Origin: Candidatus Methanosuratincola subterraneus
GTDB taxonomy: Archaea > Thermoproteota > Methanomethylicia > Methanomethylicales > Methanomethylicaceae
Assembly: GCA_004028775.1 (NCBI GenBank)
Contig: RXGA01000001.1
Coordinates: forward strand, 62,001-126,000
Reading direction: 5' to 3'
DNA: 64,000 bases
Each line of letters begins with the position of its first letter. Position 1 is the first letter of the stretch. Under the pieces are notes generated by a model that saw only the letters and a list, made by a program, of their open reading frames with translations, searched no databases and was not told the origin of the DNA. The position numbers were made by a program, and so were the translations under genes. Shown piece after piece: positions 9,259-18,780 of the stretch.

Positions 9259-10353
9259 GTGTCTGAGGTATACTTCTTCGATTTCGCCGAGAGCGACGAC
9301 GTGCTCGTAGGCATCGACAAGCTGCTTGAGAGATGTACAGGGGCTTGTGGAGGCGGAGAGCGCATAGACTTGGAAGGCAAAAGGGTAGCTGTCAAGGCCC
9401 ACTTTGGGGAGCTCGGTAACTATACGCACATAAGGCCAGCCTTTGTGAGGCGGGTGGTGGATCATGTGAAAAGCATGGGTGGCACCCCATTTGCCACAGA
9501 GACCACAGCACTATACCCCGAGGGTGCAAGGGTGACGGTCGAGGAGAGCCTGAGGACCGCGGCATACAATGGCTTCACGGAAGAAGGGCTCGGGTGCCCC
9601 ATACTGATTGCCGACGCCCCTGACGGATATAGCGGCACGGTAACCGGAGGCGGGAGGTTCGTCAATTTTGTGAAGGTGGCCAGAGCAATTGCCGATGCAG
9701 ACGCAATGATTGTGTTGAGCCACGTCAAAGGGCACGTCCTGTCAGGCATAGGCGGTGCGATTAAAAACCTGGCGATGGGGTGCACAACGAAGGACTGCAA
9801 GAGGGAGCAGCACAAGGCGCATGGGATTGTTTTTCACGAAGAAAAGTGCACGGGGTGCGGTTCATGCGCCGAGGTCTGCCGGTTCTCTGCCTTGAAGATG
9901 GTGGAGGGGAGACCAGTCTGGGACTGGGACAGGTGCTTCTACTGCTCCACCTGCAGGTTCAGATGCGAATACGGCGCAATAGGCATCCTGGAGGACGGGA
10001 AGGAGAGGTTCCAGAAGGGGATGGCCGAGGCGGCTGCCGGGGTCATGAGGGTTATGGAAGGAAAGGCGACTGTTTTTCTAAATTTCATATTCGACGTCAC
10101 GCCGCTGTGCGACTGCGCAGCCCCGGCAGGCAGCATAGTGGTGCAGAACGTCGGGATACTCGCCTCAAGGGATCCCGTGGCTGTAGATGCAGCAGCGATC
10201 CATCTGATCGACTCTGCTGAGGCGTTCCCCTCTTGGGGGGTCTCGCCTCCGGACATCCTGGGGAAGATAAACAGGACTGACAGCTGGATACACATCAAGG
10301 AAGCGGAACGCCTGGGCATGGGATCGTGCAAGTATAGGCTCGTGAGGATCTAG
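9259..10353 (+). CDS. DUF362 domain protein with two [4Fe-4S] ferredoxin motifs
   Basis: A 364-residue DUF362 protein. The N-terminal half has VAVKAHFGELGNYTHIRP and LSHVKGHVLSGIGGAIKNLAMG, hallmarks of DUF362. Residues about 196-240 hold two ferredoxin clusters: CTGCGSCAEVC and CFYCSTCRFRC. The family is linked to electron transfer and metal-centre chemistry but has no settled reaction. GTG start at 9259 with AGGAGGG upstream. It is followed by tRNA-His on the other strand. Confidence 0.88.
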   Translation: MSEVYFFDFAESDDVLVGIDKLLERCTGACGGGERIDLEGKRVAVKAHFGELGNYTHIRPAFVRRVVDHVKSMGGTPFATETTALYPEGARVTVEESLRTAAYNGFTEEGLGCPILIADAPDGYSGTVTGGGRFVNFVKVARAIADADAMIVLSHVKGHVLSGIGGAIKNLAMGCTTKDCKREQHKAHGIVFHEEKCTGCGSCAEVCRFSALKMVEGRPVWDWDRCFYCSTCRFRCEYGAIGILEDGKERFQKGMAEAAAGVMRVMEGKATVFLNFIFDVTPLCDCAAPAGSIVVQNVGILASRDPVAVDAAAIHLIDSAEAFPSWGVSPPDILGKINRTDSWIHIKEAERLGMGSCKYRLVRI

Positions 10354-10614: not shown

Positions 10615-11160
10615 TTGTTCCTTGAGATAAGATTCCACGGGAGGGGCGGCCAGGGGATAGTTACCGCCGCCGAGATGATCGCTGAGGCTGCCATCGTCGA
10701 AGGATTCTACGCGCAGTCAATACCCCTCTTTGGTGCGGAGAGGAGGGGGGCCCCGGTAAGCGCCTCCACAAGGATCTCTGAATCGCCAATCAGGCGGCAT
10801 TCACAGGTCCGGAGACCGCAAATCGTTGCAGTATGCGATCCCCTCCTCCTCTACATGAAGGATGTCTTTGATGGCGCTCCCGAGGGGGCAATACTGGTGG
10901 TGAACCACAAGCAGGAGCCGCAGCTGGAGGGATTCAGGGTCGCACTTATAGACGCCACGGGGATTGCGGTTGGGAATGGATTGGTGAGCGCAGGCTGGGC
11001 GATATTGAGCACCGTGATCTTCGGGGCGGTCTCGAAGGTGACCGGCGTAATAAGCAAGGAGACGGTACTCAAGGTGATCAACTCCAGGTGGAAGGGGGAG
11101 GTGGCAGACAGGAACCGCAGGGCAGCCGCGTCGGGTTATGAGGGGGTGAAAGCTTGGTAG
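10615..11160 (+). CDS. porG: 2-oxoacid:ferredoxin oxidoreductase gamma subunit
   Basis: Gamma subunit of the pyruvate/2-ketoacid ferredoxin oxidoreductase complex, which interconverts 2-oxoacids and acyl-CoA plus CO2 with ferredoxin. FHGRGGQGIVTAAEM at the N-terminus and IPLFGAERRGAPVSAS are family signatures. The TTG start at 10615 gives 181 residues. First gene of the order gamma-delta-alpha-beta typical of archaea. Which oxoacid is used cannot be decided from sequence alone; pyruvate is the most likely. Confidence 0.9.
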   Translation: MFLEIRFHGRGGQGIVTAAEMIAEAAIVEGFYAQSIPLFGAERRGAPVSASTRISESPIRRHSQVRRPQIVAVCDPLLLYMKDVFDGAPEGAILVVNHKQEPQLEGFRVALIDATGIAVGNGLVSAGWAILSTVIFGAVSKVTGVISKETVLKVINSRWKGEVADRNRRAAASGYEGVKAW

Positions 11161-11405
11161 TTTTGCCTGTCTCGAGAGGAAGGGAGGGGGCAGGCGGGCT
11201 TACAGGGATGTGGAGGATCAAGAGGCCTGTGGTGGACAGCAGCAAGTGCACGAAGTGCCACCTATGCTGGCTATTCTGCCCTGAGGGCGTAGTAAGGAGG
11301 GGTAGCAAAGGAGAGGTCTGGATAGTGTACGAATTCTGCAAGGGCTGCGGCATATGCGCCGAGGTCTGCGCTGCCCATGCCATAAAAATGGTAAGGGAGG
11401 TTTAG
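11154..11405 (+). CDS. porD: 2-oxoacid:ferredoxin oxidoreductase delta (ferredoxin) subunit
   Basis: An 83-residue 2x[4Fe-4S] ferredoxin subunit that carries electrons from the catalytic subunits to soluble ferredoxin. Two full cluster motifs are present: CTKCHLCWLFC and CKGCGICAEVC. The TTG start overlaps the porG stop by 7 bases. Confidence 0.92.
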   Translation: MVVLPVSRGREGAGGLTGMWRIKRPVVDSSKCTKCHLCWLFCPEGVVRRGSKGEVWIVYEFCKGCGICAEVCAAHAIKMVREV

Positions 11406-11409
11406 TCGT

Positions 11410-12561
11410 TTGATAGCGACCGGAAACCACGCTGTTGCGTACGGCGTGAAGGCGGCGAGGGCAGAGGTGATAGCAGCCTACCCGATAACCCCCCAGACGC
11501 AGATCATCGAAAAGCTCTCCGAATTCATCGAGAAGGGGGAAATGCGCGCAAAGTTTCTGCGGGTGGAGTCGGAGCACAGCGCGATGGCAGCCTGCATTGG
11601 CGCATCAGCCTGCGGCGCGAGAGCCTTCACTGCCACGTCCTCGCAAGGGCTGTTGTACATGAGCGAGATGGTATTCTGGGCAGGGCTCGGGAGCTTCCCG
11701 GTGGTGATGGCAGTGGTGACTAGGGCACTTGCCCCCCCTTGGAGCATTTGGAATGAGCACACGGACATGCTAACCCAGCGGGACGCGGGATGGATAGCCA
11801 TAATGTGCGAGAGCGTGCAGGAGGCTTACGATTCATCTATACAGGCTTTCAGGATTGCCGAGGACAGGATGGTGAGGCAGCCAGTCATGTTCGGTCTCGA
11901 TGCGTTCTCACTCTCGCACACTTCGGAGAGGCTGGAGCTGATCGGGCAGGAGGAGGCTGAGGCCTTTCTTCCGGCACCTGAAGGGGGGTGGAAGGTAATA
12001 GACTTCCAAGACCCGACCACATACGGGAACATGGCAGGACCAGAGAGGATGATGGAGATCAGGCATTCGATAATGGAGAGGGTGAAGGATAGTGCCAGAG
12101 TGATCGAGGAGGCGGCCTCCGAGTTCAGCAGGATCTCGGGCAGGGGGCAGGCGGGATTGGTGGAGGAATACAGGACTTCAGGCGCGGAGGTCATACTGGT
12201 GGTGGTCGGCGCGTCCTCTGGGGATGCGAAGGACGCGGCGGACGCCCTGAGGGACGAGGGGATCAGGGCCGGAGTTGCGAGGCTTAGGGTCCTCAGGCCG
12301 TTCCCCGCTGAGAAGATCAGGGCAGCAGTGCAGGGATGCAGGGCGGTCGCCGTGGTCGACAGGGATTACTCCTTAGGTTCCGGCGGCATAATCGGACAAG
12401 AGGTGGCTTCGGCAATTGGGGCAAAGCCTTTCAATTACATAGCTGGGATCGGGGGTCGCGACCTTAGCGTGGCGGACTTTTCTGGGATCGCCAAGGATGC
12501 GATTAGCAGGGCAGAAGCGGGCGAGGAGGGGAGGGAAATATGGTGGGGCATCAAGGGATAA
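11410..12561 (+). CDS. porA: 2-oxoacid:ferredoxin oxidoreductase alpha subunit
   Basis: Alpha subunit (pyrimidine-binding and domain II/III part) of the thiamine-diphosphate enzyme. AAYPITPQTQIIE, RVESEHSAMAACIGAS and FTATSSQGLLYMSE are the conserved N-terminal blocks, and the C-terminal transketolase-like domain (EVILVVVGASSGDAKDA) follows. Starts with TTG four bases after porD and overlaps porB by 22 bases. Confidence 0.94.
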   Translation: MIATGNHAVAYGVKAARAEVIAAYPITPQTQIIEKLSEFIEKGEMRAKFLRVESEHSAMAACIGASACGARAFTATSSQGLLYMSEMVFWAGLGSFPVVMAVVTRALAPPWSIWNEHTDMLTQRDAGWIAIMCESVQEAYDSSIQAFRIAEDRMVRQPVMFGLDAFSLSHTSERLELIGQEEAEAFLPAPEGGWKVIDFQDPTTYGNMAGPERMMEIRHSIMERVKDSARVIEEAASEFSRISGRGQAGLVEEYRTSGAEVILVVVGASSGDAKDAADALRDEGIRAGVARLRVLRPFPAEKIRAAVQGCRAVAVVDRDYSLGSGGIIGQEVASAIGAKPFNYIAGIGGRDLSVADFSGIAKDAISRAEAGEEGREIWWGIKG

Positions 12562-13460
12562 CGGAAACTTTCACTTTAAAGAGCCTGACAGACGAGGAAT
12601 ATCTTCTCCCCGGGAATGCGGCATGCCCCGGTTGCGCGGCAGTCATGGCAATGAGGATAGGGCTAAAGGCGCTCGGGCCTAGAACGGTCCTAATTGTCCC
12701 GGCCTGCTGCATGTCGGTGGCGCAGGGGCACTACCCCAAGACGCCGTCTAAGGTCCCAGTCTTCAACACCGCATTTGCTGCCTCAGCCGCCACGGCATCC
12801 GGGATAAGGGCAGCGCTGGAGATGAAGGGGATCACTGATGTGTATGTCGTCTGCTGGGCAGGTGACGGCGGCACGGCTGACATAGGCATTCAGTCGCTGA
12901 GCGGGGCAGCGGAGAGGGGAGACGATCTGATCTATATCTGCTACGACAACGAGGCGTACATGAACACAGGTACACAGAGGAGCAGCAGCACGTCCGAAGG
13001 AGCGAGGACGACCACCACAATAACAGGGAAGGCTGAGCGGAAGAAGGATGTCCCAGGGATAATGATGGCACACAGGATCCCCTACGTAGCGACCGCGTGC
13101 GCATCCTACCCGCTCGACTTCGCGAACAAGCTCAGGAGGGCAGTCTCGATTAAGGGGACGAGGTACATCCATCTGCTTTCCCCATGCCCGCCTGGCTGGA
13201 GGTACCCGTCCGAGAAGACGGTCGAAGTCGGGAGGCTCGCGGTCGAGACCGGGGCCTGGATACTTTACGAGTGGACCGGCGGGAGGTGCAGGCTCACAGG
13301 GCCATCTTCAGGGCTAGCAGATAGGTCAAGGAGGCGCCCGCTCGAGGAGTATCTCAGAATTCAGGGGAGGTTCTCCGAAGCGGATCCTTCCAAGATTGAG
13401 GCAATGAAGAAAAGGATCGACGAGGAGTGGGAGATGATCCTTGAGCTATGCAAGGGTTAG
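12540..13460 (+). CDS. porB: 2-oxoacid:ferredoxin oxidoreductase beta subunit
   Basis: Thiamine-diphosphate-binding beta subunit. The N-terminal cluster ligands CPGC sit in LLPGNAACPGCAAVMAM, the diphosphate/Mg motif GDGGTADIG precedes a downstream asparagine (YDNEAYMNTG), and a further cysteine pair surrounds LLSPCPPGW. These show a PorB-type subunit holding one [4Fe-4S] cluster. Its stop overlaps the stop of the convergent peptidase gene by 4 bases. Confidence 0.94.
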   Translation: MVGHQGITETFTLKSLTDEEYLLPGNAACPGCAAVMAMRIGLKALGPRTVLIVPACCMSVAQGHYPKTPSKVPVFNTAFAASAATASGIRAALEMKGITDVYVVCWAGDGGTADIGIQSLSGAAERGDDLIYICYDNEAYMNTGTQRSSSTSEGARTTTTITGKAERKKDVPGIMMAHRIPYVATACASYPLDFANKLRRAVSIKGTRYIHLLSPCPPGWRYPSEKTVEVGRLAVETGAWILYEWTGGRCRLTGPSSGLADRSRRRPLEEYLRIQGRFSEADPSKIEAMKKRIDEEWEMILELCKG

Positions 13461-14458
13461 AGTATCCTGCCGTCGCGCATTACCGCCTCGGTGATCCCTG
13501 AGGAGTACGTGCACTCCACGGTGGGCCTGGAGATCAGGAAGTCCATGTGCGTTGCGGATCTGTTCCTGCCGCCTGGGAAGTCTGTGTTGTGCCCGAATGC
13601 CACATGGATTGTATTCGCGACCTTCTCGGCCTCGAGGAAACCGGCGTTGACCCTCGCCTTCTTGTTGAGGCCAAATGCGAACTCCCCGACATACCTAGCC
13701 ATCTCGTCGACTCCCAGTGCGGTCTCGACCCTCGATAATATTTCCCTGTCATCACACCTGAACTCTGCAGCCCGCCCGCCCCTAGCAACTATCTCAAATG
13801 GCGTCTGAATTGGTCCGATGCCTCCGATTGCAAGGTCGCAGACGATCTTCCCCTCAAGGGAAGTCTCAACCGGGGCTACAATGACCTCCCCTGTCGGGAG
13901 GTTGCACCATTTGAAGAGCCCCCAGTCGAACTTTGTGTCGGTGAAGAAATCCCTCCCCTCGACGCTGAAGGAGATGTCGGTCCCGTTTGGGCTGGTCACC
14001 CTGATCCTCCTCACGTCCATTAACCGCGAGATCAGACCAAGGGCTGACGAGTACATCGACCTGTGCTCCTCATCTGTCAGCGAGAGGGCGCCATCGGTCA
14101 GCATATCCATGGTTATCCCCGGGCAATGACCCAGCCGGAACTTCCTGTACCTCGATATCAGGTCAATTATGCTGACGCGGAAAGGGGTCTCTTTCTCGCT
14201 CTCCCTGAAGACTGTGATGAAGATGTCAGAGGCATTCCTGGCGACGACCTCGGAGACGCGCTCAGGCAGCCCGCTTCTAACATCCCCTCCGGTTTCGAGG
14301 GGGATGAGCCTGGTGGCGAGCCCGAGCTCGAGTGCCCCAAGCGCAAAGGACTCCCCTATGTCTAGCCTGCAGTCGTCGCAGATCACTGTCAGGCGCTCAT
14401 TTGGGATCGCATCAAAGACAAACTTGATTGCGTTCTTTGCTGCTTCTTTAGGTTCCAT
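13457..14458 (-). CDS. M29-type leucyl aminopeptidase-like metalloprotease
   Basis: A 333-residue protein like the M29 (thermophilic AmpT/AmpS) aminopeptidases. The two-metal site is suggested by NLPTGEVIVAPVE, and by HVAFGHNTDFPGGRN with SATHMDFLI near the C-terminus. It would release N-terminal residues from peptides in the cytoplasm. Single gene with a TATA-like CTTTTATC upstream near 14480-14488, convergent to porB. Confidence 0.8.
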   Translation of the reverse strand: MEPKEAAKNAIKFVFDAIPNERLTVICDDCRLDIGESFALGALELGLATRLIPLETGGDVRSGLPERVSEVVARNASDIFITVFRESEKETPFRVSIIDLISRYRKFRLGHCPGITMDMLTDGALSLTDEEHRSMYSSALGLISRLMDVRRIRVTSPNGTDISFSVEGRDFFTDTKFDWGLFKWCNLPTGEVIVAPVETSLEGKIVCDLAIGGIGPIQTPFEIVARGGRAAEFRCDDREILSRVETALGVDEMARYVGEFAFGLNKKARVNAGFLEAEKVANTIHVAFGHNTDFPGGRNRSATHMDFLISRPTVECTYSSGITEAVMRDGRIL

Positions 14459-14556: not shown

Positions 14557-16437
14557 TCAGCTGAGACCCAACGCCGACCGCTTTCCCTCTATGTGGATTG
14601 CTATCTTCTCAGCCGCCTTAACCATGTCATCCTCGATGAGGAGGGACCCGCCTGTGACGTGTGCAAGGTCCTGCGATAGCAGCTTCATCAACCTGGAGCC
14701 CCCGACAATAGGCGGGGTTGGGGATACGTGGGTAAGCACGCCCAAGGCAAGCGCAAAGATTGCGTCGATCGTAGCCTTCTGTTCCATGTACTGAGGGGCA
14801 GTGACCGCGATTGGGAGATCGGGGATGTCGACATGGAGCGCCTTTGCGACCTCGGAGACGAGTATTGAAAGGCGCCCCGTATCAGTGCAGGTCCCGAACG
14901 AGAGGACCGGCGGTATGCCGAGCGATCCGCAGACCCTCTTCAAGCCTGGTCCGGCAAGTTCCCTTGCCTCAGGCGAGCAGAGGCCGGCCACCTGCAGCGC
15001 GGCATTCCCGCATCCCATTGAGAGGACCAGGACGTCCCGGCCTATCAGCTCCTTGGCCACAGTGATCGTAGGCAGATCGTGCGGGCCGTTGCCGAGCGTC
15101 GTGCAGGAGACTAGACCGACGACACCCCTCACGCTTCCTGATTTTATCTCGGCGAGGAGTGGCTCCAGCGACCCCCCAAGCGCCTCGAGTATCGATTCGA
15201 CCGAGAAGCCCACAATCGCGCTCCGCTTCGCCATAGGGACGCTGCTGGCTGAGCCTTTCCTCTTTTTGAAGTTCTCAATGGCTAGCCTTACGAGCTCGTC
15301 AGCCTGCCTTGAGACCTCCTCGGGCAGGTAGTCGACATGCCTTGTTATGCCTGGGACGTTCACGAGCGGAGAGACCGAGACGAAGGTGGTCGAATACTGC
15401 TTCGCGTAGAGCTCGAGGGATGGGGGCGAGCAATTCATGTCCATGGCAAACAGGTCTACCGCGTTAGTTGCTACCAGAGGCTCTATAGTGATCCAGTTAC
15501 CAGTCATCCCAACATAAACGTCGTCCGTTGCCATCCGCTGGAGCATCTCCTGCCCGGTTTCGATGGATCCTATCACGCGTATGCCCTTGGCGCCGATCTC
15601 TCTTGCCATTGCCTGGACGGACGGATCCTTGCAGCGGCCTATCAGCGCGACCCCAAAGAACGGCTCATGACCGTTAACCACGATGTTGACGTACTCCGGA
15701 TCCAGGATCCCAAGGTCAAAAGAGACGACATGCGGACGGGGCGTCCCGAAGAGAGCGTCCTGACCGAGCTCGAGCGGGATCTGAGATCCATAGATGCATG
15801 AGAGGGCAAGGCGCATCGCCGTCTTAGCGAGGGAGACGTAGTCGCCGTCCACGTTCGTCAGGCAGTGCGACACGGCGTCAATCTGCTCATTCGCAGGGCC
15901 CCCAGGCAGTATCCCAAGCCCCCTCCAGGTCTCGATCCTGCCCGCTGTGGCGAGGGCGAGGGTGCTCAGCCGCTCTGAGGGGTCGGCGTTTATCTCCCGG
16001 AGGATCGCATTTCCAACTTCAACTGCAAGCTGCGAGTCGCTCTTTGAATCGGCTATTCCGTATATCCTGGCCAGCATCCTTAGCTTGGATGCGTCCTTTA
16101 TGGAGTAAGGGGTCTTTCCCAAGCCAGTGGCGATTAGCGTCCTCGCGACCTCCCTTGCATGGTAGGTGTAGGTCGAGAGCCCCATAGCATTCCTGAGGAG
16201 CATATAGCGCATTGCCATGGCATCGGCATCTATGCCGCAGGTACCGCGCTCGAGCTTGCCAGGTATGATCCTGCAAGGACCGTTGCTGCAGAACTGGCAG
16301 CTGAGACCCTTCATGCAGAAGGATCTGCACCGGACCTGCTCCTGCGCCTGCCATCGATCCCATACGTTCGAGATCCCGTCTGCCTTGAGCTTCTCGTACA
16401 TCTTCCTTATCGATTCATGCGCACTAATTTCCGGCAA
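14557..16437 (-). CDS. Divergent CooS-type carbon monoxide dehydrogenase catalytic subunit
   Basis: A 626-residue homologue of the Ni-Fe CO dehydrogenase. B-cluster ligands Cys47, Cys50, Cys55 and Cys67 are present, as are most C-cluster ligands: His257 (VNGHEP), Cys336, Cys445, Cys476, Cys517 and the acid-base Lys554. However, the conserved ICCTGNE motif reads SIETGQE, so the cysteine equivalent to Cys295 of the Carboxydothermus enzyme is Glu293. The two D-cluster cysteine positions that link the dimer are Arg38 and Ser46, although Cys37 and Cys41 lie nearby. Classic CO oxidation is therefore uncertain. No CooC, CooF or acetyl-CoA synthase genes flank it. TTG start. Confidence 0.85.
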   Translation of the reverse strand: MPEISAHESIRKMYEKLKADGISNVWDRWQAQEQVRCRSFCMKGLSCQFCSNGPCRIIPGKLERGTCGIDADAMAMRYMLLRNAMGLSTYTYHAREVARTLIATGLGKTPYSIKDASKLRMLARIYGIADSKSDSQLAVEVGNAILREINADPSERLSTLALATAGRIETWRGLGILPGGPANEQIDAVSHCLTNVDGDYVSLAKTAMRLALSCIYGSQIPLELGQDALFGTPRPHVVSFDLGILDPEYVNIVVNGHEPFFGVALIGRCKDPSVQAMAREIGAKGIRVIGSIETGQEMLQRMATDDVYVGMTGNWITIEPLVATNAVDLFAMDMNCSPPSLELYAKQYSTTFVSVSPLVNVPGITRHVDYLPEEVSRQADELVRLAIENFKKRKGSASSVPMAKRSAIVGFSVESILEALGGSLEPLLAEIKSGSVRGVVGLVSCTTLGNGPHDLPTITVAKELIGRDVLVLSMGCGNAALQVAGLCSPEARELAGPGLKRVCGSLGIPPVLSFGTCTDTGRLSILVSEVAKALHVDIPDLPIAVTAPQYMEQKATIDAIFALALGVLTHVSPTPPIVGGSRLMKLLSQDLAHVTGGSLLIEDDMVKAAEKIAIHIEGKRSALGLS

Positions 16438-16772: not shown

Positions 16773-16866
<94 letters not shown>

Positions 16867-16935: not shown

Positions 16936-17130
16936 GTTTCGCTCTATGTAGGCACAGGTAGGTATGCGTCGGCATGCCTATCATATGCATATAAGAGCTT
17001 GGGCTTCACAGCCTCATATAGCCCCCTCACGAGTTCATAGGGGGCCTTCAGCTCCGCCCCTGTCAGGAAGTACCCACCCACCAGTGATGGCAAGATATGC
17101 TTATCCCACCATTTCATCTGGTGGGGAACT
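16936..17130 (-). ncRNA. Candidate omega-RNA (TnpB guide RNA scaffold)
   Basis: TnpB nucleases use an RNA made from the 3' end of tnpB and the element end, with the guide read from flanking DNA. Here two hairpins lie in the tnpB tail: CCCACCA/TGGTGGG (17105-17111 with 17119-17125) and GCCCCCT/AGGGGGC (17021-17027 with 17039-17045). The same region is kept in the deleted copy at 30762, with a compensating base-pair change. The scaffold would end at the left border (16936) and the guide would come from about 16935 down to 16916, that is, from the tRNA-Glu upstream region. Inferred, not measured. Confidence 0.5.
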
Positions 17131-18203
17131 CCCTCCATCCTCAGATACAGGTTTATCGCGGCGTTGAGCTGCCTATCTATCGTTAAACCACAGCTCCCAC
17201 ATCTGAACATGCACCCGTTCAGGTCTCTATTGATACACCCACATCTGGAGCATCCCTTAGATGTGTGCTGTGGAGGCAGCTCTGTGCTGCCATCGACTCT
17301 TCTCATTATCGCCCTCCAGTCCGTTCTCATAACTCTCCTGTTCCATACCCTAGACCTCCGATACATCCTCTCCTTCCTCAGCCTCTCGAAACCGTTTACT
17401 TCAGCTAAAGAGTTTATGACTCTAGCGATTTCGAGCTGATGTTTCCTTGCTTTATTCATCTCCCTCCTCGAATACTTGTTCAGCACCCTCTTAGCCTTCT
17501 TCGACTTTGCCTCTCTCTGAACCGACCTCCTCTTCTCAAATGATGATATGTGAACAGTAGCAAGCGCCTTCGTATCTATCTTCACCCAACCTATTTTGGG
17601 AGAGTAACCATCAAGGGATAGCATGTTTGAGTCCCAAGCGATCTTTCCTATTGCGGGTTCAGGTCTCTTATCAGGCGCATGTATAGGTAGATATATTCTG
17701 TTGAGAGTGATGATTGGTTCCCCGATCCCGCTTGATGAGATTTCCCTAGGGATTTTGAAGTAGCGTTTTGATAGGTCAAAGTAAACAAAACTTTTGGGTG
17801 CTGTGGTAACCCTTAGATTGTCCCCTTCCAGCTTGCATAAGGTCTGCTTCACTCTAATGAATAATCTTCTTGCCTTTGGGCACACCCTCTTCCTATCACC
17901 TTTAACATAATTCTTCTTCCAAGAATCCATTATCGAAAAAGCAGTCTTCAGTGCAGAATCAACCCAATGTGCTGCATAAATCCAACCTTTCAGGTTCTTA
18001 TCCCTCAAACACTTCTTGAACTGATTATCCTTCCTGTAGATTGGAAGGAGCCTGAACTGATTCTTTCCTCGTATCTTAACCTGTTTCCATCTTATGTTTG
18101 ACCAGATATCCTCTATTATAGCGTTGAGTATCTCGTTGTATGCTCTAAGCAATCCTTCAACCTCTTCCCTTTTATCATGCTTGAGCGAATAGGTCTTTAG
18201 CAT
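16944..18203 (-). CDS. tnpB: TnpB, RNA-guided nuclease of an IS607-family element
   Basis: A 419-residue TnpB (OrfB). The three RuvC acidic residues are recognisable: Asp191 (IAWDSN), Glu273 (NGFERL) and Asp343 (TIDRQLNAA). The C-terminal zinc finger is intact (Cys318, 321, 335, 338: CSRCGC...CGSC). TnpB nucleases cut DNA matching their guide RNA and help the element stay at its site. It overlaps tnpA by 29 bases and appears undamaged. Confidence 0.92.
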   Translation of the reverse strand: MLKTYSLKHDKREEVEGLLRAYNEILNAIIEDIWSNIRWKQVKIRGKNQFRLLPIYRKDNQFKKCLRDKNLKGWIYAAHWVDSALKTAFSIMDSWKKNYVKGDRKRVCPKARRLFIRVKQTLCKLEGDNLRVTTAPKSFVYFDLSKRYFKIPREISSSGIGEPIITLNRIYLPIHAPDKRPEPAIGKIAWDSNMLSLDGYSPKIGWVKIDTKALATVHISSFEKRRSVQREAKSKKAKRVLNKYSRREMNKARKHQLEIARVINSLAEVNGFERLRKERMYRRSRVWNRRVMRTDWRAIMRRVDGSTELPPQHTSKGCSRCGCINRDLNGCMFRCGSCGLTIDRQLNAAINLYLRMEGVPHQMKWWDKHILPSLVGGYFLTGAELKAPYELVRGLYEAVKPKLLYAYDRHADAYLPVPT

Positions 18204-18780
18204 GTTCCATGACCTCCTTGTACTTATGGCTCCTCAACCCATACATCTTACCTGAGAAATGGGATATTATCATGATAAGGTCTTCGACCAACTCTTGCTG
18301 GGGTGATTTCATCTCCACCTGGTTCAGCACCTCGATGCTTGTTCCATGGGCTTCGAACACCTTCCGAAGTGTGTCAAATCCGAATCTTGTAAGCCTGTCC
18401 TCGTACAATATTACTACCTTGTCCACCTCATTGTGCAGCACTCTATCGAGAAGCCTCAGAAACCCTTTCCTCTTCTCGTTTAAACCAGAACCTACATCAG
18501 TAATTATCTCCTGAACCCCTCTCTGCCTCAAATACTCCACCTGCCTCTCCAGGTCGTCTTTTTGGGTTGATGACGAAACTCTGGCATAACCTATTATGCT
18601 CCTTATACCTCTCTCGCCCTGCATCCTCCGAATCTCTGATTCGGGTATTCTCCTGCGGCCGCCTATGGTCCTCACGACCCTGATCTTCCCCTGCTTGTCC
18701 CACTTCTGAATCGTTCTCGGATGAAGACCGAGAAGCAGGCAGGCTTCTTTAAGGGTGTACAACTTCTCTGGCATGCACAT
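18175..18780 (-). CDS. tnpA: IS607-type serine recombinase TnpA
   Basis: A 201-residue transposase. The N-terminal MerR-like helix-turn-helix (YTLKEACLLLGLHPRTIQKW) recognises DNA, and the C-terminal serine-resolvase domain has the nucleophile region IGYARVSSSTQKDDLERQ and DRLTRFGFDTL. It moves the element through a circular intermediate into GG targets. Start ATG 18778-18780. Intact in length and motifs. Confidence 0.92.
   Translation of the reverse strand: MCMPEKLYTLKEACLLLGLHPRTIQKWDKQGKIRVVRTIGGRRRIPESEIRRMQGERGIRSIIGYARVSSSTQKDDLERQVEYLRQRGVQEIITDVGSGLNEKRKGFLRLLDRVLHNEVDKVVILYEDRLTRFGFDTLRKVFEAHGTSIEVLNQVEMKSPQQELVEDLIMIISHFSGKMYGLRSHKYKEVMEHAKDLFAQA

Follow-up and report, generated by a model that had tools for sequence, protein, structure and literature searches.

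Does a gene whose product has the fold of a CO dehydrogenase (CODH) still encode a CODH when one of the cysteines of its Ni-Fe C-cluster has been replaced by glutamate? This question is raised by the open reading frame (ORF) at 14557-16437 of the 64,000-nucleotide stretch of archaeal DNA analysed here (the window). The analysis places its product as a new archaeal member of group D-1, or CooS-V, a known but still poorly understood group. By analogy, the puzzle can be regarded as already solved in a 54% identical homologue, and it is not an open question about CO chemistry.

Gene and gene product

The ORF lies on the minus strand, starts with TTG and codes for 626 amino acids, while the plus strand of the same interval is interrupted by stops. 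Searches with phmmer, Pfam, NCBIfam and AlphaFold/Foldseek identify it as a cooS-V type gene (14557..16437), coding for a prismane/CODH-family protein of structural group D-1. The top phmmer match is 7b7q (733 bits), the CooS-V of C. hydrogenoformans (CooS-V Ch), with which it shares 337 of 621 aligned residues (54.3%). The protein matches PF03063 at 465 bits, and its best-scoring NCBIfam model is TIGR01702, that of the CODH catalytic subunit (755 bits against a cut-off of 478). This last match would speak for a functional Ni,Fe-CODH, but the model probably covers CooS-V-type proteins too and is thus non-discriminating. The models for HCP (hydroxylamine reductase) are below threshold, with 39 bits for TIGR01703 (cut-off 360.8) and 36.3 bits for NF003658 (cut-off 367).

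An AlphaFold model of the metal-free monomer, predicted from a 23-sequence alignment, has a mean pLDDT of 90.7 and a pTM of 0.92. Its best PDB matches in Foldseek are both CooS-V, 7b9a and 7b7q, at an rmsd of 1.1 and 1.2 Å; true CODHs come next, at 1.7-1.9 Å and 31-37% identity. The closest named relatives of the gene are found in Candidatus Methanosuratincola genomes, with M. petrocarbonis V4 at 95% identity. On this basis, the host belongs to this genus of Thermoproteota methanogens or stands close beside it. An isolate exists for one of its species, Methanosuratincola petrocarbonis LWZ-6 (PMC12244365). No report of CooS-V in Methanosuratincola was found in the main texts of the open-licence PMC literature.

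Active site

The properties of CooS-V Ch are the main guide to this protein. In the available text of PMC9311411, it is described as carrying a hybrid cluster of Fe, S and O, [4Fe-3S-nO], that rearranges with the redox state, as containing no Ni, and as catalysing neither CO oxidation nor CO2 reduction. Group D-1 itself was defined in 2019 (Inoue et al.; PMC6344411) by a type III D-cluster and a Glu at the first C-cluster cysteine, Cys1, and its active-site residues are the same as in HCP; the preliminary description was thus right that surveys of CODHs contain groups with such losses. A 2026 marine survey leaves these sequences out of its CODH count on such grounds (PMC13240472, as far as its accessible text goes).

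The hybrid-cluster ligands and second-sphere residues named for CooS-V are all kept in the archaeal protein (8/8 in the alignment), Glu293 among them. This residue (15559..15561, minus strand, as for all positions below) aligns with Glu295 of CooS-V Ch and occupies the position of the C-cluster Cys295 of true CODHs; consequently, the full set of one His and five Cys of the true enzymes is absent. The change from ICCTGNE to SIETGQE read earlier from the sequence is therefore borne out by alignment. The other C-cluster ligands are present, as had also been stated: His257 (15667..15669; His259 of CooS-V Ch, a hybrid-cluster ligand in the reduced state), Cys336, in the pair Asn335-Cys336 (15430..15435; Asn337 and Cys338), Cys445 (15103..15105; Cys449), Cys476 (15010..15012; Cys480) and Cys517 (14887..14889; Cys521, the persulfide cysteine). 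Further features are Glu552, equivalent to the HCP-like ligand Glu556, through Lys554 at the catalytic-lysine position (14776..14784), and Tyr90 (16168..16170; Tyr91 of CooS-V Ch) at the position of the acid-base His, a Tyr being typical of D-1 (roles from the available parts of PMC9311411 and PMC6344411). A nearby cysteine might in principle take over from Cys295. Nevertheless, Cys268 (in GRCKDPSV) falls outside the columns that are invariant, or almost so, in 23 relatives, and for lack of conservation neither it nor another nearby cysteine is accepted as a replacement.

The retention of five of the six C-cluster ligands and of the lysine would agree with a functional Ni,Fe-CODH that uses an unusual Glu ligand. 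By contrast, the same residues are found in CooS-V Ch, with the properties given above, and the variant C295E of CODH-II is Ni-deficient and has lost CO oxidation (PMC9311411, available text). No close relative with proven CODH activity came to light. Thus, Ni and CO activity are not expected in the archaeal protein, in agreement with the earlier suggestion that the active site is remodelled, perhaps for another reaction.

Conservation among relatives

A scan of genome contigs with a seven-sequence alignment confirmed 444 relatives, and the 80 best of these were retained. Loci had been picked by two peptide patterns, one of which contains MEQK and neither of which contains Glu293. A Glu occupies position 293 in 80/80 of these best 80 relatives, and it is therefore not there by chance. 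The remaining ligands are kept in all 79 readable loci (L090 is incomplete), the conservation of Glu552 and Lys554 being partly by construction because MEQK is inside a search pattern. Within the phylum, 40 of 398 genomes matched at 1e-10. Among the fetched matches of at most 40% identity (13 loci, L019-L031), all have a Cys at the Glu293 position. In the tree, a branch with an SH-aLRT of 99 separates the 80 Glu-bearing rows from these 13 Cys-bearing rows; L002, L090 and L127 were omitted from the tree, and CooS-V Ch and groups D-2 to D-4 are not knowingly among its rows.

Bridge and B-cluster

The [4Fe-4S] B-cluster motif, Cys47-X2-Cys50-X4-Cys55-X11-Cys67 (16237..16299), is invariant in 23 relatives, and the retention of the B-cluster together with the catalytic lysine (Lys554, in MEQK) had been recognised correctly. 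The bridging D-cluster requires more comment. Its motif, Cys37-X3-Cys41 (16315..16329), is common to the whole archaeal family and corresponds to type III with one inserted residue, Arg38. In the alignment with CooS-V Ch, Ser46 and Cys41 are unshifted, and Cys37 pairs with Cys38 across the insertion. The type III pattern is Cys-X-X-Cys-(X)5-Cys, against C37-X3-C41-X5-C47 here; both bridge cysteines are present, with one residue extra. The preliminary description had considered both standard D-cluster cysteines lost and two others displaced. This applies only if the sequence is aligned with canonical (type II) enzymes and no gaps are allowed; relative to CooS-V, the sole difference is the inserted Arg38. 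Ser46 and Cys41 would then represent the normal type III arrangement of group D-1, and only the spacing C-X3-C, in place of C-X2-C, appears unusual. The different bridge geometry that had been proposed matches the all-Cys [2Fe-2S] bridge of CooS-V Ch, which accompanies [4Fe-4S] B-clusters (PMC9311411, available text).

Of the 79 readable loci from the best 80 of 444 relatives, 14 have the spacing C-X3-C-X5-C, namely all 11 loci of the archaeal family and three bacterial ones (L080, L089, L092). This spacing needs three changes on the tree; the single change given for it in the table of tree groups comes from comparing it with the outgroup alone. As a marker of one lineage it had to be rejected, given that a one-clade constraint yields a p-AU of 9e-7 (44-row subset, quick tree, LG+G4). 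Thus, judging from these sequences, the insertion would have arisen at least twice, and the bridge probably tolerates one additional residue.

Host genomes

The cooS-V gene is the sole PF03063 gene of its own genome (1.51 Mb, 96.7% complete), and this situation is common in the archaeal family. Among 22 family genomes, 17 carry CooS-V, one (G038) has an HCP instead, and four have no PF03063 gene. One CooS-V copy is split over two reading frames (G193) and another is cut by a contig end (G139). In 16 of the 17 carriers, CooS-V is the only gene of the prismane/CODH family; the exception is G198, where a 4.1 kb contig carries part of an ordinary CODH and the contamination of the genome is estimated at 5%. 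If only the 12 family genomes with at least 90% completeness and at most 5% contamination are considered, eight have CooS-V, seven of them as the sole PF03063 gene. Acetyl-CoA synthase (PF03598) was found in none of the 22 genomes, the search control being positive in two methanogens. With no acetyl-CoA synthase in the family and a single PF03063 gene, there is therefore no known CO pathway for the protein to serve.

Beyond the family, 16 of 66 other host genomes, some of them possibly incomplete, have a single PF03063 match, which is necessarily CooS-V. The statement that the CooS-V type occurs only beside other CODH genes (PMC9311411, in its available text) is thus not supported by either set of genomes. 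A 2026 context survey describes clade D genes as mostly solitary and reports a high co-occurrence with HCP (PMC13056359, accessible part); here, a recognisable HCP was seen in six of the 66 other hosts, and HCP and CooS-V occur together in none of the 22 family genomes. The HCP of G038 matches NF003658, a hydroxylamine reductase model, at 758 bits and has an HTH_10 regulator gene upstream. In this genome, it looks as if HCP and CooS-V had replaced one another within the family.

Gene neighbourhood

In the window, cooS-V is followed at 98 bp, on the same strand, by an ORF for an M29-like peptidase (13457..14458, minus; PF02073, 58.8 bits). It is a possible co-transcript, conserved only locally: the arrangement recurs in five of the 11 family loci examined (L051, L052, L054, L059, L060), it is not found in L053 and L055-L058, and L090 is incomplete and unreadable at this point. 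Neither this ORF nor the upstream genes are kept beyond close relatives, and no conserved redox or regulatory neighbour was seen in the archaeal family loci. One cluster of neighbours (cluster 1, 15 loci) was set aside, since its members, multi-domain proteins resembling histidine kinases, seem to have been grouped by chance.

Other genes nearby can be noted in their own right. Convergent with cooS-V are the genes of a four-subunit 2-oxoacid:ferredoxin oxidoreductase (gamma, ferredoxin, alpha, beta; 10615-13460, plus strand), with a DUF362-ferredoxin protein (9259-10353) ahead of them. On the other side, an IS607-type pair (16944-18780, minus) consists of a resolvase (18175-18780) and a TnpB-like ORF (16944-18203) and is adjoined by tRNA-Glu(ctc) (16773-16866). 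The similarity to L051, L059, L060 and L052 ends at about 16910, and thus the IS607-type element or a larger insert lies directly beside this tRNA gene.

In other hosts, the neighbourhood is more informative. A ferredoxin of about 240-280 amino acids is found near CooS-V in several lineages. It is called FrdX-like here for its gene arrangement beside hcp. FrdX is already known to share an operon with hcp (PMC1274295), and a module has been described in which hcp is followed by frdX under the Crp/Fnr-type regulator HcpR (PMC1274295, PMC545781; available parts of both). In the 66 other host genomes, counting the 120 PF03063 hits whose frames are long and CooS- or HCP-like (Cdh-type and fragment hits left out), the FrdX-like ferredoxin lies within 3 kb of 16 of 69 CooS-V genes, three of seven hcp genes and two of 44 other cooS genes. 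These last two are in Methanoperedens-type genomes, where the ordinary cooS is 2.1 kb from an FrdX shared with a CooS-V. The difference between 16/69 and 2/44 has a Fisher p of 0.008 when relatedness is ignored. For these counts, 16 one-domain ferredoxin rows were dropped and nine pairs merged, which gave 40 places; among the rows dropped, two (G447, G456) are also within 1 kb of CooS-V. Adjacency of FrdX requires eight changes on the tree, and it is therefore not one inherited event. In the three deltaproteobacterial genomes with both HCP and a full FrdX, the latter adjoins hcp (128-149 bp). The neighbourhood link between FrdX and CooS-V is thus suggestive, and no report of it was found in the main texts of the open-licence PMC literature. 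In the genome under study, FrdX was not found, the best match (E 8e-9) being to generic ferredoxin domains, and a clear FrdX is present in one of the 22 family genomes (G139).

Regulator genes may also be found beside CooS-V, of MsvR type in six of 80 loci and of Crp/Fnr type in five. The former adjoin CooS-V in six Thermoplasmata loci, and the one protein checked scores 242 bits against a cut-off of 220. In L096/L140 and L082, a Crp/Fnr regulator, FrdX and CooS-V adjoin as in hcpR-frdX-hcp; L096/L140 is a Firmicutes genome in which CooS-V is the only PF03063 gene. In 11 of 80 loci, a small cupin protein (about 95-117 amino acids; one checked, Cupin_2) is encoded close to CooS-V, frequently no more than 300 bp away (L055-L057, L069, L074, L100, L118, L122, L125, L128, L130). 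In Ca. Methanoperedens BLZ2 (L065, 6001-7863), CooS-V and an FrdX-like ferredoxin lie about 4 kb from an ordinary cooS. A cluster of two cooS genes with nitrate reductase has been described in this organism and read as CO-coupled (PMC13079737). If both are the same cluster, one of the two enzymes taken for CODHs there is probably none.

Function and alternative explanations

Taken together, group membership, residue conservation, fold, the lack of CODH/ACS and, in other hosts, the neighbourhood of CooS-V and an HCP-type partner favour, with a probability of roughly 0.85, an archaeal CooS-V that carries an Fe/S/O hybrid cluster, does not act on CO or CO2, and serves to reduce some small oxidised molecule. 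Confidence is high that the protein is no CO dehydrogenase, and at most moderate that it works as an HCP-like reductase. The protein would be a homodimer of CODH fold, bridged by a [2Fe-2S] cluster and with a [4Fe-4S] B-cluster in each subunit. The position of the Ni-Fe C-cluster would be taken by the hybrid cluster, bound through His257, Glu293, Cys336, Cys445, Cys476, Cys517 and Glu552, and CO and CO2 would not be interconverted. A low-potential ferredoxin would supply electrons, which would travel over the [2Fe-2S] and [4Fe-4S] clusters to the hybrid cluster and reduce it. The persulfide of Cys517 would shift into the cluster, opening the channel, and the small oxidised molecule would be reduced there. 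Cluster chemistry, channel switching and the lack of CO activity are carried over here from the solved homologue CooS-V Ch; the substrate class, the electron donor and the stress role in the archaeal host are what we infer.

A specific HCP-like role, acting on reactive nitrogen species such as NO, hydroxylamine or similar, or on another oxidant, comes a little short of an even chance. The genome with HCP and without CooS-V, and the FrdX-like ferredoxin near CooS-V elsewhere, count in its favour. By contrast, 53 of 69 CooS-V copies have no FrdX link, FrdX is missing from the archaeon's own genome, and its family keeps no regulator or redox partner beside the gene; the ordinary cooS genes near FrdX in two Methanoperedens-type genomes also count against this role. 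In addition, CooS-V Ch does not reduce NO beyond the background rate, and its hydroxylamine reductase activity is very low (kcat 0.13 per s; PMC9311411, available text), and thus a reactive-nitrogen substrate is not proven even for this enzyme. On a tentative note, CooS-V may have evolved independently as another hybrid-cluster reductase, substituting for HCP and taking over FrdX in HCP-less hosts. As the sole enzyme of its superfamily in the Methanosuratincola family, it might shield a methanogen devoid of a CO pathway against reactive nitrogen or some other oxidant, with an altered bridge spacing and a different electron donor.

A different explanation is that the protein does not act as a catalyst but as a redox or gas sensor, whose signal would be the redox-dependent rearrangement of the hybrid cluster. 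The very slow turnover and large redox-driven restructuring of CooS-V (PMC9311411), the regulatory roles suggested for clade D (PMC13056359; available parts of both) and the regulators beside CooS-V in some hosts would fit. Nevertheless, this is unlikely, since no signalling domain or partner was seen in the window or the archaeal family, the neighbouring regulators more simply control the CooS-V gene, and the electron-transfer clusters and FrdX-type neighbour would better suit an enzyme. A functional Ni,Fe-CODH is considerably less probable still: M. acetivorans genetics has been cited as a hint that D-1 is involved in CO metabolism (PMC6344411, accessible part), but this must be set against the inactive homologue, the C295E variant and a family without acetyl-CoA synthase. 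Finally, a decaying or non-functional relic of a former CODH, as a solitary gene, no CO pathway, the split copy and the four genomes without CooS-V might suggest, is the least probable reading and is largely refuted by sequence conservation, as the frame is open in most family members at identities down to 71% and all cluster residues are invariant, which points to purifying selection.

For the most part, this reading of an archaeal CooS-V confirms published work: in genome-based accounts of CO metabolism, CooS-V-type genes should be left out of the tally of CO dehydrogenases. What it chiefly adds are genomes in which CooS-V stands alone, and the association with FrdX. Where CooS-V is present without another CODH, ACS or HCP, its role can no longer be mistaken for a part of CO metabolism, as is usually the difficulty. 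The FrdX link offers a concrete electron-donor candidate for CooS-V.

Comparison with known systems

The closest known system is CooS-V Ch (PDB 7B7Q, 7B7T, 7B95, 7B97, 7B9A), which the archaeal protein resembles in identity (54.3%), fold, the eight hybrid-cluster residues, Ser46/Cys41 and the B-cluster cysteines. The two differ in the bridge, which is C-X2-C in CooS-V Ch and C-X3-C in the archaeal protein, and in the host, which here has no other CODH or acetyl-CoA synthase, whereas the available text of PMC9311411 places the type only beside other CODHs. With HCP (TIGR01703/NF003658), it shares the superfamily PF03063, the hybrid Fe/S/O cluster chemistry known from its closest homologue and, through CooS-V in other hosts, an FrdX-type neighbour; by contrast, it scores 39 bits to the HCP model (cut-off 361) and has CODH-type bridge cysteines and the CODH fold. 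Compared with canonical CooS-type Ni,Fe-CODHs (CODH-II Ch, D. vulgaris CODH), the fold, the B-cluster, five of the six C-cluster ligands and the lysine are alike, but Cys295 is replaced by Glu and the acid-base His by Tyr.
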